A DNA stretch of 64,000 nt. Origin: Natrononativus amylolyticus. Lineage in GTDB: Archaea; Halobacteriota; Halobacteria; Halobacteriales; Natrialbaceae. The notes under the pieces were generated by a model. That model ran no database searches, was not told the origin of the DNA, and worked only from the letters and a program-made list of their open reading frames with translations. Made by a program: the position numbers and the translations under genes. The DNA lies in NCBI RefSeq assembly GCF_024362525.1, contig NZ_CP101458.1, forward strand, positions 2,790,001 through 2,854,000, read 5' to 3'. Shown piece by piece: positions 39,217-44,725 of this stretch. Position 1 is the stretch's first letter. The number at the start of each line of letters is the position of its first letter.

Positions 39217-39426
39217 CACGGATCGGTGCCGACGAACGCCCCGAGGAGCGACCGGCGAATCGCGTCGCCGCCGGGCGATTTTGGACAGAAAACCGGAGCG
39301 TTCTCCCGGACCTTATGTACGACCTGACTACGCAGGCTCAGCCCGTTCGTGTCCGTGCCCGGTAGACAGTTTTCCACGGGACACAACGGCCCCGAGCGGC
39401 GACGACGTGGGCCGCCCGACCCAATC

Positions 39427-40500
39427 ATGAAAACCAGCATCGAGGTGGAGTACTGGATCGTCGACGACAACGGCGATCTCGTCCCACCCACAACGCTGCT
39501 CGACGTCTCCGACCAGGTCGAACCGGAGTTCGTCGAGCCGATGATCGAGATCAAGACGACGCCGTGTGAGTCCGCGACCGAACTCCGCGAGGAGTTCGTC
39601 GGTCGCATCCGACGGGTCGTCGACGCGGCTCGCGGAGAGGGAAAGCGGCTCGTCCCGCTGGGAACGCCGCTCCACGCGGCTCCGGCGGAGATCCCGTACC
39701 GGGAGAAGACGGGGACCGACCTCCAGCGACAGATCATCGGTCCGTCGTTCGACGACGCGCGGTTCTGTGCGGGCACGCACGTCCACCTCGAGCAGTCGAG
39801 CGTCGTCGACCAGCTCAACACGCTGACCGCGCTCGATCCGGCGTTCGCGCTGATCAACAGCTCGTCACACCACCGGGGTGAGCGACTCGCCGCCTGTGCG
39901 CGGCCGTACCTCTACCGAAAGAGTTGCTACGAGGCGTTCCCCGATCAGGGACAGCTCTGGCCGTACGTCGGCAGCGTCGACGAGTGGGAGGAGCGCCTCG
40001 GGCGGTCGTTCGCGGCGTTCCGGGACGCCGCCCGCGAGCGGGGTGTCGGGGCGGACGCGTTCGACGAGCAGTTCGACCCCTACGACGCGGTCTGGACGCC
40101 GGTCCGCCTCCGCGAGTCGTTCCCGACCGTCGAGTGGCGCTCGCCCGACGCCGCCCTGCCGAGTCAGGTGCTCTCGCTGGCGACGGAGATCCGCGCGATC
40201 GTCTCGCGCGCCGACGCCCGCGGCACCGTCGTCTCGCCCGACGAGCCCGCCGGCGACCGGGTCCGACTCCCCGACTTCGGGACCGTCGACGAGACGGTGT
40301 CGACGGCGATAGAGCACGGGCTCGCGGACTCGAGCGTCACGAACTACCTGCGAGGCGTCGGCCTCAACCCCGACCGGTATCGGCCGCTCGCCGACCGCCT
40401 GCCGGACCGACGAGTATCGCGAAACGAGGCCCGACGGCTGCGCCTGCGGGCGGCCGACTGGCTCGAGGCCGACCTCGAGCGAGCCGTCGCCCGTCCCTGA
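39427..40500 (+). CDS. Glutamate-cysteine ligase-like (GCS2 family) carboxylate-amine ligase
   Basis: This 357-residue protein belongs to the GCS2/YbdK group of ATP-dependent ligases that join the gamma-carboxyl of glutamate to an amine such as cysteine. Features: MKTSIEVEYWIVD at the start, PEFVEPMIEIKTTPC near residue 37, FCAGTHVHLEQSS (about 117-129) and INSSSHHRGERLAACARP. Haloarchaea use gamma-glutamylcysteine as their main thiol. This could supply it, but a second GCS2 paralogue elsewhere may do so, so the substrate is unsure. The start was set at the Met before the conserved strand. Confidence 0.82.
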   Translation: MKTSIEVEYWIVDDNGDLVPPTTLLDVSDQVEPEFVEPMIEIKTTPCESATELREEFVGRIRRVVDAARGEGKRLVPLGTPLHAAPAEIPYREKTGTDLQRQIIGPSFDDARFCAGTHVHLEQSSVVDQLNTLTALDPAFALINSSSHHRGERLAACARPYLYRKSCYEAFPDQGQLWPYVGSVDEWEERLGRSFAAFRDAARERGVGADAFDEQFDPYDAVWTPVRLRESFPTVEWRSPDAALPSQVLSLATEIRAIVSRADARGTVVSPDEPAGDRVRLPDFGTVDETVSTAIEHGLADSSVTNYLRGVGLNPDRYRPLADRLPDRRVSRNEARRLRLRAADWLEADLERAVARP

Positions 40501-40515
40501 GACGATCCGCCGTCG

Positions 40516-41658
40516 TCACTCTGCTTTCGGCGTGAGGTCCAGGTCCGTCGAGACGGCGCTGCGCTCGAGCCACTGCGCGCCGGTTCGCAGCGGTTCGGGG
40601 ATCTCCTCGCCGATCGCACAGGACACCGGCTCCGTCTCACAGGGCGTGTTGAGCGCGAGTTCGATCGTCTGCGAGCCGCCCTCGAACACCGTTGCGCTCG
40701 CCGTCGTGAGCTGTTCGAACGCGTACGGCGCCTCCGTGTCGGGCTCGCGGTGACGACAGATCGAGTCGTCGCCGGGCCCGTTCTCGTGATCGCGGGCGAC
40801 CGTCCACAGGCGGTCGCGGCCGATCCGATCGTCGCCCTCGAGCAGCGCCAGCGCCCGTTCGCGCCGGCGAAGCGAGCTCTCCGCCTCCGGAGACGACGAG
40901 TTGACGAAGTGGTTCGTCCGGACCACGAGCGGGCCGTCGTCGGCCGTGATCCGTTCTTCGACCGGATCGACCTCGAGCAGGACTGTGTCGGTCTCGTCGG
41001 CGAGAAACAGCGTCTGGGCCGCGAGCCGTCGGACGGGGTAAGACTCGAGGACCGTCCGGGCGTCGGCGACCGTGGCGCACTCCTCGAGCAGGATTCGGAT
41101 GACGGTGCCGTTTCGGACCCGCTCTTCGGGCTCGACGTCGTCGCGTTCGACGTCGATGTTCGTGTTCGCGGCGACCAGCCCCCGGTCGTTGACGCCCTTG
41201 AACAGCATCACCGTGCCGCAGGTGTCGACGGTCAGAAAGCCGCGGTAGTCGCCGATCGCGGGCTGCTGGTAGACCGCCTTCGGCCGGACGCCGCGGCCGG
41301 CGATGTCGCGGTTCTTGAGCACGAGCGAGCCGTCCGCGTCGGTGTGTGGCGGGGCGACGAGGACGTTGGTACAGCCGTTCGCCGCCGTGTTTCCGAGCTC
41401 GTCACAGAGTTCGGAGAACGCGAAGACGTACACCTCGTAGAGCGCGTCGTCGACGTCGAGGACCTCTTTCATCCCGTCGTAGGCGGCCAGGTGCCTGTCG
41501 GGGAGGCTCTGACGGCTCCGCCGGGAGTACTCGAGCAGCGCCTCGAGGTCGACGTCGCGTTCGGTACACAGCTCCCCCAGCGTCGACACCGCCCACTCGA
41601 GAACCGCGCGTTCGTCTCGGCCGCGTCGTTTCCCGTGCTCGTAGAACGCCTCGTCCAT
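40516..41658 (-). CDS. C45-family autoproteolytic acyltransferase/hydrolase
   Basis: This 380-residue protein belongs to the Ntn-hydrolase group related to acyl-CoA:6-aminopenicillanic acid acyltransferase (peptidase family C45). The likely nucleophile is C96 in NGCTNVLV, followed by SLVLKNRDI, the usual NRD-type continuation. Such enzymes cut themselves before the Cys and then hydrolyse or transfer an amide-bound acyl group. It has no signal peptide, so it acts in the cytoplasm. FKGVNDRGLVAANTN and RNGTVIRILLEECATV are other family features. The substrate is unknown. Confidence 0.85.
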   Translation of the reverse strand: MDEAFYEHGKRRGRDERAVLEWAVSTLGELCTERDVDLEALLEYSRRSRQSLPDRHLAAYDGMKEVLDVDDALYEVYVFAFSELCDELGNTAANGCTNVLVAPPHTDADGSLVLKNRDIAGRGVRPKAVYQQPAIGDYRGFLTVDTCGTVMLFKGVNDRGLVAANTNIDVERDDVEPEERVRNGTVIRILLEECATVADARTVLESYPVRRLAAQTLFLADETDTVLLEVDPVEERITADDGPLVVRTNHFVNSSSPEAESSLRRRERALALLEGDDRIGRDRLWTVARDHENGPGDDSICRHREPDTEAPYAFEQLTTASATVFEGGSQTIELALNTPCETEPVSCAIGEEIPEPLRTGAQWLERSAVSTDLDLTPKAE

Positions 41659-41749
41659 GGACGCGCTACGGGGGCGACGGGTTTGTAGCCACGGGGCGCT
41701 CCTGCCGGGTCACCGGGCGCGACGACGTCGAACCGTCGGCTCGACCCTC

Positions 41750-44725
41750 TCAGTCGTCCCCGGCGACATCCTGACCGCGACCGATGCCGCGTCCGTGGCC
41801 CGGTCCTTCCGATCCGACACCGTCCTCGGAGTCGTAGGCGTCGAACAGCGGGAACGACTCGGTGAACGCGTCCGTCTCGAGCACCGTCGGCTCCTCGAGG
41901 TAGCGCCCCTCGTCGAGGAGCGCGTCGTCGTTCAGCCGGAGGTCGGTGTTCAGCCGGCTGGCGAGGTGGTTGAGGTTCCGGGTGTGTTCGGTCGTCGCGT
42001 CGGCGCTGCCGAGCAAGACGACGGCGCCGCCGTCGGCGCGGAGTTGCCGGAGCGCGATGATCTCCTCGGTCTCGAGTTCGCGAGCGGGCGCCGAGACGAT
42101 GACCGCGCGCGGCGTCTCCTCCTCGGCCGGCAACGTCCCCGCGAGGTCGTTGACCTGGCGGAGTCGAAGGCCGACGCCCTCGAGGTACCGCAGGAAGAAC
42201 TGACAGCGCTCGAGCGAGAGCGAGCCGGCGGCGTTGAACTGACCCTGGCCGCCGGCGATGAAGACGTCGCCGCGGGTGTCGGCGAGGTAGTCGATCAGGT
42301 TCGCGAGGAACGGGAAGTTACCGTACTCGCTCGTGTCGGCGAAGCCCTCGCTCTCCTCGTACTGTTCGTGGATGGTGAGCCCGCCGACCGCCGCGATCCG
42401 ACGCACCTCGTCGACGCCAACGAGCGGGACGTCGTCGTAGGCGACGCCCTCCTCTCCGAGCCGTTGTTCGGCCGTTTCGGACGCGTAGACCGGGACGCGG
42501 TTCTCGCTGAGCCGGCCGCCGTTCCGGTCGCGGTCGCTGTAGACGCTGCGGGCGTTCGGCACGAAGAGCGTCTCGACGGGGTCGTTGCGGATCTCCTCGA
42601 GGGCGTCGAAGTCCGCGGCCGACCAGATGCCACGGCCGTCCGCGAGGGCCTCCTCCTCGAGGGCCGACCACTCGTCGTGGGTCGAAAAGCCCGACGAGTA
42701 GACGCGGGCGTACCCCTTCTCGACCGTTTCGCGGTTGTAGTTCACCGAGAAGTCGCCGGTCTCGAAGCCGGCGTCGAACTCGTCGGGGTCGTAGTACATG
42801 TTCATCAGCAGGCGGCCGTAGTTCCCTCGAAGCGGCTCTGCGGGATCGAACGTCATCCTGACGTGACGGCCCTCGAGGTCCGTCTCGCCGGCCTCGGCGT
42901 CCCCGGGGGCCATGACCTCGAGGGAGAACTCCGTCGCCTTCGCTCCCCACTCGTAGAGGTGTTCGTCCTCCCACTCGGGGACGCCGAACCACTCCTCGGA
43001 GTCGTTCTCGGCGGGCGGCGTCTCGGCGGTGTCGATCCCGATGTGGCGGATCGTATCGCGGTAGCCGAACTCGGAGTCGAACTCGACCTCGAAGGTGTCG
43101 CCGTCGAACACCCTGACGACTTTTCCGTAGTACTCCTCGCCGGCTTCGAACTCGATGCCGACCCCCTGGCGATCCTCGAAGAACGCCGCGAGGCCGTCGA
43201 ACTCGGTCGCGAGCGGGACGTACTCGGGACCGTCGTTCTGGACCTCGTCTTCGACCTGCCCGCCGTTGAAGCGGAACGCGAGGTCGAGTTCCTCGGCGAG
43301 GGCGTTCAGGTTCTCGGTGCGGTCGTGGCCGCCGAAGTCGGACTGATCGAACAGGAACAGCGCGCCGCCGTCGGCGACGAACTCGCGGACGGCCTCGAGT
43401 TCCGACTCCCAGAAGTCGTACTGCGGCGTCGTGATGACGAGGCCGTCGGCGTCCTCGAGACCGACGTGCCCGGTGCCGTCGCCGACGTACGCCTCGTCGA
43501 CGGCGGTCGTCGTGAACACGAAGTCACTCCAGCCCGTCGCGTCGTCCTCGACCTGATCGGCGTTGAACCGGAACGCGAGATCGAGTTCCGCGGCGATTTC
43601 GTTCAGGTTGTCCGTCTCGTGGTGACCGCCGAACTCGGACTGGTCGTGGAGGAACACCGCGCCGCCGTCGTCAACGAAGTCGACGAGGGCCTCGAGTTCG
43701 TCGTCGGTGAACGCCCGCTCCGGCGTCGTGACGACCACCGCGTCCGTCTCGCCGTCGCCGAGCGTCTCGAGGAGGTCGTCGGTCGCCGACACGTCGTACC
43801 CCTCGTCTTCGGCCTCGGCGATGAAGTCCGTGAACTGCCCGGCGTCGTAGTACTGGTCGTGGCTCTCGTCCCAGACGACCGTCTCGCCGTCGATCAGGTC
43901 GTCCCAGAGCGCGAGGACGAACGCGTCGTTCTCGCCGTGGGAGTTGTCGTCGTCGACCAGTGGGGCGCCGAGGCCGACGACGCTGCCGTCGCGCGAAACG
44001 AGCGGAATCCGCTCGTCCTCGCCGTACAGGTACGCGCCGTCGTCGTTCTCGTCGACGTTCGTCGCCGTCTCCTCGGCCCAGACGAGGACGTGCCCGTCGT
44101 CGGTGAGCGGGCCGCCGTCGGCGTTGATCTGGGAGGCCGTCGAGTAGAACTCGAGGCCGTCGTAGCCGTCGTCGAACGACTCGAGGGCCGCGAGTTCGTA
44201 GCCGTGGGCCTCCGCGTAGTTCTGGAAGGTTCGGTGCCGGGAGAGGTCCCAGTGCTGGTTCTGCGCCTCGCTCCAGAGGACGGTGCTGTCGGGACCCATT
44301 AGCTCGTCCCAGACGTTGAGCAGGAACTGCTCGTTTCCGTGGGCGAACCCCCCGCGCTCGTCGCTGACGAACCCCGCCGAACCGACGCCGACCACGTTTT
44401 CGTCCCGACTGATCAGCGGAATGCGGTCGTCCTCGTAGAAAACGACGTCGTCCTCGTCGGTCGAGTCGTCCGCGATCATCACGTAGGCGTCCGCCGACGC
44501 CCACGCGATGACGTGCTCGTCGTCGGTGAGCGGACCGCCGTCGGCGTCGATCTGAGAGGCCGTCGAGTAAAACGAGAGCGCCTCGAGCGCCGCCTCGTCC
44601 GCTTCGGAATCCGCCGCCGAAACGCCCGGAACGCCGGTCGCCAGCCCGCCTGCGGCGACGCCGAGCGCCGACAGAACCGATCGTCGTCGAACCAGGTACT
44701 CCCCAGTGGTGGTATCGCCTGCCAT
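41750..44725 (-). CDS. Tat-exported multidomain protein with a staphylococcal-type nuclease
   Basis: This 991-residue secreted protein starts MAGDTTTGEYLVRRRSVLSALG, a Tat signal. Two copies of a FYSTASQI-containing module lie at about residues 49-190 and 190-325. Two DUF4350/glutaminase-like alpha/beta modules follow (about 332-410 and 415-490), each with a DGGAxFLxDQSxFGGH core. A thermonuclease domain spans about 530-697, and a third alpha/beta module lies at about 868-942. The nuclease residues appear intact: DGDTF, RHIGIDTAE with Arg, Asp and Glu, and YGRLL. Haloarchaea eat extracellular DNA, so a nutritional nuclease is likely. The C-terminus GRGIGRGQDVAGDD is disordered. Confidence 0.85.
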   Translation of the reverse strand: MAGDTTTGEYLVRRRSVLSALGVAAGGLATGVPGVSAADSEADEAALEALSFYSTASQIDADGGPLTDDEHVIAWASADAYVMIADDSTDEDDVVFYEDDRIPLISRDENVVGVGSAGFVSDERGGFAHGNEQFLLNVWDELMGPDSTVLWSEAQNQHWDLSRHRTFQNYAEAHGYELAALESFDDGYDGLEFYSTASQINADGGPLTDDGHVLVWAEETATNVDENDDGAYLYGEDERIPLVSRDGSVVGLGAPLVDDDNSHGENDAFVLALWDDLIDGETVVWDESHDQYYDAGQFTDFIAEAEDEGYDVSATDDLLETLGDGETDAVVVTTPERAFTDDELEALVDFVDDGGAVFLHDQSEFGGHHETDNLNEIAAELDLAFRFNADQVEDDATGWSDFVFTTTAVDEAYVGDGTGHVGLEDADGLVITTPQYDFWESELEAVREFVADGGALFLFDQSDFGGHDRTENLNALAEELDLAFRFNGGQVEDEVQNDGPEYVPLATEFDGLAAFFEDRQGVGIEFEAGEEYYGKVVRVFDGDTFEVEFDSEFGYRDTIRHIGIDTAETPPAENDSEEWFGVPEWEDEHLYEWGAKATEFSLEVMAPGDAEAGETDLEGRHVRMTFDPAEPLRGNYGRLLMNMYYDPDEFDAGFETGDFSVNYNRETVEKGYARVYSSGFSTHDEWSALEEEALADGRGIWSAADFDALEEIRNDPVETLFVPNARSVYSDRDRNGGRLSENRVPVYASETAEQRLGEEGVAYDDVPLVGVDEVRRIAAVGGLTIHEQYEESEGFADTSEYGNFPFLANLIDYLADTRGDVFIAGGQGQFNAAGSLSLERCQFFLRYLEGVGLRLRQVNDLAGTLPAEEETPRAVIVSAPARELETEEIIALRQLRADGGAVVLLGSADATTEHTRNLNHLASRLNTDLRLNDDALLDEGRYLEEPTVLETDAFTESFPLFDAYDSEDGVGSEGPGHGRGIGRGQDVAGDD

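Follow-up and report, generated by a model that had tools for sequence, protein, structure and literature searches.

The GIFT-type module of a family of haloarchaeal nucleases probably grows by recursive self-insertion, either at the same core loop of the module, up to three levels deep, or at the loop behind the catalytic Glu of the nuclease (SNase) domain, and would in this way form a rigid branched scaffold whose modules could gate the active site or steer what reaches it. The family member described here is encoded in the window, the whole 64,000-nucleotide stretch of DNA that was analysed, from a Natrialbaceae haloarchaeon with a 3.99 Mb genome in three contigs. We consider it likely that this protein is a Tat-exported, probably Ca2+-dependent extracellular SNase nuclease held between rigid, very acidic, probably ligand-binding GIFT modules, one of them nested.

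Architecture of the window protein

The gene and the parts of its product are located in the window as follows, with the evidence for each in brackets:

41750..44725, minus strand: whole gene, protein P0001, 991 amino acids plus stop (single open frame, ATG at 44725)
44597..44725, minus strand: putative Tat-type signal region, residues 1-43, with RRRSV at 13-17 (motif)
44180..44578, minus strand: N half assigned to GIFT-A, residues 50-182 (half-module profile; 45% identity to the N half of GIFT-B)
43454..44164, minus strand: GIFT-B, complete, between the GIFT-A halves, residues 188-424 (Pfam, self-comparison, profiles, predicted model)
43853..43870, minus strand: H-x-Q motif of GIFT-B, DESHDQ, residues 286-291 (sequence)
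43247..43450, minus strand: C half assigned to GIFT-A, residues 426-493 (half-module profile; 61% identity to the C half of GIFT-B)
42620..43144, minus strand: SNase (thermonuclease) domain, residues 528-702 (Pfam, predicted structure, profile alignment)
43022..43099, minus strand: catalytic residues D543, R560, D565, T566 and E568 (alignment to S. aureus nuclease; conservation)
42812..42814, minus strand: R638, corresponding to R87 of S. aureus nuclease (alignment; conservation)
41828..42592, minus strand: GIFT-C, complete C-terminal module, residues 712-966 (Pfam, profiles; pLDDT mostly >90 over 720-960)
41753..41827, minus strand: Gly-rich acidic tail, residues 967-991 (sequence; pLDDT about 30)

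The protein contained Pfam matches above cut-off to DUF4350, ABC_transp_aux, IFT52_GIFT and SNase, as well as a match to OST48_N below that profile's own cut-off. DUF4350 (PF14258) was matched in three stretches (E 1.2e-19, 71.8 bits against a cut-off of 30.4), and IFT52_GIFT (PF23355) reached an E value of 1.4e-11 (44.4 bits against 27.2). The profile search proposed beforehand for each module led to DUF4350 and the GIFT fold of IFT52 and GldG, in agreement with the alpha/beta modules of DUF4350 type described in a first-pass annotation of this DNA; by eye, no amidotransferase-type nucleophile motif was seen, as its description of modules lacking clear catalytic residues would have it.

The number of modules had to be revised. 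The first-pass annotation counted five, with the FYSTASQI and DGGAxFLxDQS repeats as separate modules, and self-comparison ruled out five independent units. When the protein's own pieces were compared by BLAST, residues 48-182 aligned to 189-316 of the contiguous module 186-424 (45% identity), residues 425-494 aligned to 326-395 of that module (61%), and the C-terminal module 715-970 aligned with the whole of it (29%); in the self-comparison, the E values were 3e-35 for N1/N2 (45%) and 5e-29 for C1/C2 (61%). The two repeats are thus the N half and the C half of one module, both aligning to the contiguous GIFT-B. Scanning with profiles for the two module halves and for the SNase parts (SN1 ends just past the catalytic Glu; SN2 is the remainder) resolved the protein into N N C C SN1 SN2 N C, that is, three modules made of three N halves and three C halves, with the SNase domain between NNCC and NC.

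A twin-arginine stretch, RRRSVLSALG, was found near the N-terminus, where the NCBIfam model TAT_signal_seq scored 11.7 bits against a cut-off of 16.7. In 103 of 127 ORFs of the family, an RR motif lies no more than 60 residues ahead of the first module, and no lipobox was seen by eye in residues 1-43 of the window protein. The motif at residues 13-17 is the evidence for the secretion that had been predicted earlier, and it suggests that the protein leaves the cell already folded, through the Tat pathway. An antisense open frame of 881 codons lies over the nuclease gene (window 41657-44302, plus strand) and has a similar counterpart in 24 of 40 relatives' loci; it is most likely a codon-bias shadow.

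Nesting of GIFT modules in the window protein and its relatives

The full-length predicted model (pLDDT 77.9, pTM 0.54, 39 sequences) left the N half of GIFT-A poorly defined, with block means of 36-61 near residues 147-188. The model of residues 44-522 reached a pLDDT of 89.0 and a pTM of 0.73, from an alignment in which each three-level row had been divided into an N1-N2 and a C2-C3 piece and rows of the base form were aligned on N2-C1. Here GIFT-B appears as one domain built from N2 and C1. It superposed on the IFT52 GIFT domain (5fmr_A) with a Z score of 8.6 over 128 residues at 1.9 A, and on residues 93-288 of the O-glycopeptidase IMPa with a Z score of 12.1 over 170 residues at 3.1 A. 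By exclusion, N1 and C2 would form GIFT-A, whose strands (model residues 105-109 and 134-138, then 385-389, 412-416 and 441-450) follow a strand/helix order that mirrors GIFT-B. The insertion point is best explained as the loop that separates core strands two and three of GIFT-A.

The modules resemble the GIFT domains of IFT52, GldG and Wbp1/OST48 in profile and, for GIFT-B, in fold, but differ from them in an added N-terminal beta part, the fusion to a nuclease and the self-nesting. The IMPa region is the closest solved match to the entire GIFT-B, beta part included, although the two share 9% identity and IMPa is a metallopeptidase; our literature search found no role for this region. Human FASN (8vle), ranked first by Foldseek for the N-terminal arm (prob 0.63), superposed poorly (TM 0.14) and was rejected, and a PDB sequence search with the full window protein gave no meaningful match.

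Relatives were collected in a census of Halobacteria that combined the loci of a scan of GTDB contigs (69 loci, six of which, L135-L140, carried SNase without GIFT) with stretches from family and class searches, the class search contributing the strongest places among the matches listed; ORFs were picked by search hits and are not a random sample. Among the matches listed, at least 151 distinct ORFs contained at least one GIFT half. The base form NC-SNase-NC accounted for 71 of the 151, the two-level form NNCC-SNase-NC for 15, including the window protein, and a form with three nested levels (NNNCCC-SNase-NC) for 11. A GIFT module was located inside the SNase domain, as NC-SN1-(NC)-SN2-NC, in 15 of the 151, and two more carried two GIFT modules there. 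An additional C-terminal GIFT occurred in two ORFs, SNase-NC in seven and NC alone in 14, the rest being truncated or broken pieces. The identities between N1 and N2 and between C1 and C2, together with the recurrence of the window order in 15 of 151 ORFs, indicate that this arrangement is not due to chance.

Linkers had median lengths of 7 residues for N-C, 7 for N-N, 33 for C-C and 37 for C-SN1, and of 12 for SN1-SN2 in domains without an insertion; these lengths suggest that the insert takes the place of one particular loop. In the SNase domain, the insert directly follows the DTPE motif, beside the catalytic Glu, at what is presumably the Omega loop adjoining E43. Each of the 19 GIFT modules within SNase was more like an N-terminal than a C-terminal module.

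Further variants were observed in the census. Some three-level proteins have another insertion level, an extra Ig-like stretch of about 120-165 residues located between N2 and N3 or within N3 (L044, L045, L051/L082, L050/L081 and L057). Secreted-looking single GIFT proteins of 273-276 amino acids, in ORFs without a nuclease, were found in L141 (7193-8020), L142 (7097-7915) and L143 (7217-8035) and could be free binding modules. SNase-GIFT without an N-terminal GIFT was present in L144, L145, L147, L153, L201, L202 and L203, with Ig-like repeats after it in L144 and L145. Copies spread over at least two frames or cut at contig ends (L055/L083, L066, L130, L134 and L146, Natrialba asiatica included) represent broken genes or sequencing errors.

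The N N C C order would be equally expected if the half-modules were separate small domains that had been duplicated singly and stood in tandem without nesting, and the pairing tests (mirror-tree, coupling and base similarity) are silent or slightly contrary to nesting in the two-level clade. Of six pairings, a coupling score put the nested one first in 12 of 13 three-level proteins, and it favoured nesting in seven of 15 two-level proteins, the window protein being among the seven by a small margin; in hold-out tests this score succeeded in 80-100% of cases, depending on the identity bin, a rate that is due in part to shared ancestry, and the nested proteins are mutually related. Among three-level proteins, C3 was closest to the base modules in 10 of 13. 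For the two-level proteins, the half closest to the base module matching N1 was C1 rather than C2 in 14 of 15, with ties assigned to C1; the margins were mostly of a few per cent and the references distant, and C2 was closer in the window protein alone. Mean identity to base modules in this clade was higher for the inner halves (N2 53.0%, C1 65.9%) than for the outer ones (N1 48.6%, C2 63.2%), which fits two units and proves little. Best hits from two-level to three-level proteins joined N1 to N1 and C2 to C3 in all 15 cases and N2 to N2 in 14 of 15, but C1 found C2 in just two of the 15 and C3 in 12, which speaks against simple colinearity. The correlations of half-module distances in the mirror-tree analysis do not favour the N1-C2 pairing. 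As a guess, exchange between near-identical C halves may have blurred the pairing record.

Independent duplication of halves is nevertheless very unlikely in our judgement. Every full-length census row has as many N as C halves, with the exception of L102, in which two separate hits cover the C-terminal N half; the split point falls within the Pfam DUF4350/GIFT matches, and the modelled N2+C1 unit corresponds to a single IFT52 GIFT fold. In addition, complete N-C units are found inside SNase, and both N1 and C3 of a Natronosalvus protein correspond to one Halostagnicola module.

This last comparison is the clearest sign of nesting. A quick tree of 90 proteins, based on SNase and the C-terminal GIFT with SH-aLRT support only and a midpoint root, gathered 27 nested proteins into a single group (100) that contains the two-level window type (98), and put GIFT-inside-SNase sequences in at least two places. 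The three-level Natronosalvus protein L057 was located beside two base-form Halostagnicola-type proteins (99). Compared with the base-form L062 and L063, L057 and L066 showed 67-71% identity in N1 and 62-65% in C3, and 37-50% in the inner halves. N1 of L057 ends at residue 187 and C3 starts at 827, with about 640 residues between them, where L062 has a 6-residue loop. At the level of sequence, one GIFT module thus appears to have been split by a block that is itself nested. The records concerned are large plasmids (Natronosalvus halobius, N. rutilus and Halostagnicola larsenii). The insertion in sister lineages, the order of the halves and their recurrence are read directly from the sequences, and nesting in the two-level clade of the window protein is suggested by half order together with predicted structure.

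Nuclease domain and gene neighbourhood

The SNase domain was identified by PF00565 on residues 558-702 (E 7.1e-7, 30.1 bits against a cut-off of 21), and residues 528-702 of the full-length model superposed on S. aureus nuclease with a Z score of 17.4 over 133 residues at 2.2 A. In a profile-to-PDB alignment, D543, R560, D565, T566, E568 and R638 aligned with D21, R35, D40, T41, E43 and R87 of that enzyme, which we take to be its Ca2+-binding and catalytic residues. The profile match, the superposition and the presence of all six positions confirm the complete thermonuclease recognized in the first-pass annotation. Loss of the nuclease residues in all homologues had been named as evidence that would count against it; across the SNase pieces of the census, the catalytic positions were unchanged wherever aligned, Thr aside. 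The D21 and R35 positions were kept in 131 of 131 pieces, D40 and E43 in 130 each (one gap each) and R87 in 129 (two gaps, both in truncated rows), and the T41 position was Thr in 127, Ala in two, Ser in one and a gap in one. The window nuclease is probably Ca2+-dependent.

Fold and active site are alike in the window protein, S. aureus nuclease and EcnA, although the EcnA profile NF047969 (NCBIfam) scored 76.4 bits against an equivalog cut-off of 180. The S. aureus nuclease used for comparison has no GIFT modules, whereas 17 relatives of the window protein have SNase split by one or two. The window protein was the sole SNase-family match in its own genome (1 of 1).

Two neighbouring genes recur beside the nuclease gene:

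window 40516-41658: AAT-family (acyl-CoA:6-APA acyltransferase-like) gene, beside the nuclease gene
window 39352-40497: glutamate-cysteine-ligase-family (GCS2) gene, near the nuclease gene

Among 12 loci of the window type (L032-L043), the GCS2 gene was common to nine and the AAT gene to six. These shared neighbours most likely indicate shared descent and not function.

Proposed roles of the modules and the enzyme

The role of the modules was considered from motif conservation, charge and the domains of relatives. An H-x-Q motif was kept in 97 of 111 modules of the N-terminal-labelled training group and in 120 of 147 others; in nested proteins, it was kept in N1 (27 of 28), N2 (13 of 28) and N3 (13 of 13). 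The window protein has the His in GIFT-B only, with Q-x-Q in GIFT-A and GIFT-C. Retention of the motif in most positions suggests a ligand site, and sugar binding has been proposed for GIFT domains (PMC7226087). The modules are most likely non-enzymatic and would bind a ligand and position the nuclease; our guess is that the ligand is a surface or matrix glycan. A match to a known binding domain had been listed beforehand as an argument against a new kind of module: GIFT was indeed matched, and its sugar binding is itself put forward as a proposal (PMC7226087).

The modules might instead bind DNA, as the first-pass annotation suggested, and pass it on to the nuclease. They flank the nuclease and are placed inside it, near the loop of the catalytic Glu, in 17 of 151 ORFs, but GIFT-B has four Lys/Arg against 64 Asp/Glu, and mean net charge per 100 residues is -17.1 for N halves and -15.0 for C halves. 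This acidity makes DNA binding unlikely; the argument is weakened by the SNase parts, which are equally acidic (-15.3).

The C-terminal parts of relatives vary (LTD, PKD, CARDB, PPC, a weak dockerin match or Gly-rich tails), and the GIFT pair flanking the nuclease is nearly constant. Attachment of the enzyme to the S-layer was the other role that the first-pass annotation offered for the modules, but the changeable tails look like better candidates for anchors. We infer that the tails do the anchoring, whereas GIFT positions the nuclease or binds a ligand. In public plasmid records, members are named 'PKD domain-containing', 'lamin tail domain-containing' or 'thermonuclease family' protein.

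The function of the enzyme is proposed by analogy with Hvo_1477 (COG1525), a surface nuclease of Haloferax volcanii with SNase and a lamin-tail domain, which the organism requires to grow normally on DNA (PMC3929857). Hvo_1477 is an exported haloarchaeal SNase-family enzyme like those of the window family, and a lamin-tail domain also occurs in some GIFT-SNase-GIFT relatives (L087). It differs as a lipoprotein of 327 amino acids with a single lamin-tail domain and no GIFT in its feature table (PMC3929857); the window protein had no LTD match in Pfam and no lipobox by eye, and so is not of the Hvo_1477 type. Ca2+ dependence, if real, would keep the exported enzyme silent inside the cell. Outside, it may degrade extracellular DNA for phosphorus, nitrogen and carbon, or loosen the DNA of biofilms. 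Its nuclease would be carried between GIFT modules, with an N-terminal arm of GIFT-B inside GIFT-A; joined by two short linkers, these two modules would be held rigidly in relation to each other, as a single flexible link could not do.

Alternatively, the protein could be mainly a structural component of the surface or matrix, with a nuclease that guards against incoming DNA from viruses or competitors and does not serve feeding. Its large, acidic and modular form, the LTD, PKD, CARDB and other extracellular domains of relatives, and the several copies on large plasmids are in line with such a role. No defence-type genes were seen among the window neighbours, where the glutamate-cysteine-ligase-family gene, the AAT-family gene and MCM adjoin, and we regard a chiefly protective role as distinctly unlikely compared with extracellular DNA degradation.

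The first-pass annotation knew of no defined system of this type. The module itself is common, with profile matches in 106 of 242 Halobacteria genomes (E <= 1e-8); as to the architecture, our literature search, which covered subscription journals thinly, found no paper joining DUF4350 with a nuclease or describing this layout, nothing on an IFT52 structure with carbohydrate or on nested homologous domains, and no experiments on any family member. Domains nested within domains are known from the SI3 region of cyanobacterial RNA polymerase beta', with recursive insertions up to six levels (PMC13114784). Unlike SI3, which has another fold and function, GIFT is inserted both into itself and into an enzyme domain.

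These findings reduce a confusing series of repeats to one simple rule, that of balanced halves, and the family provides natural before/after pairs of domain self-insertion that can be traced between close relatives. The 17 ORFs with an insertion beside the catalytic Glu and an intact active site offer a natural template for domain-insertion engineering. For haloarchaea without other SNase-family genes, the protein is a clear candidate for the use of extracellular DNA, and its doll-inside-doll design may help to find and digest DNA outside the cell.
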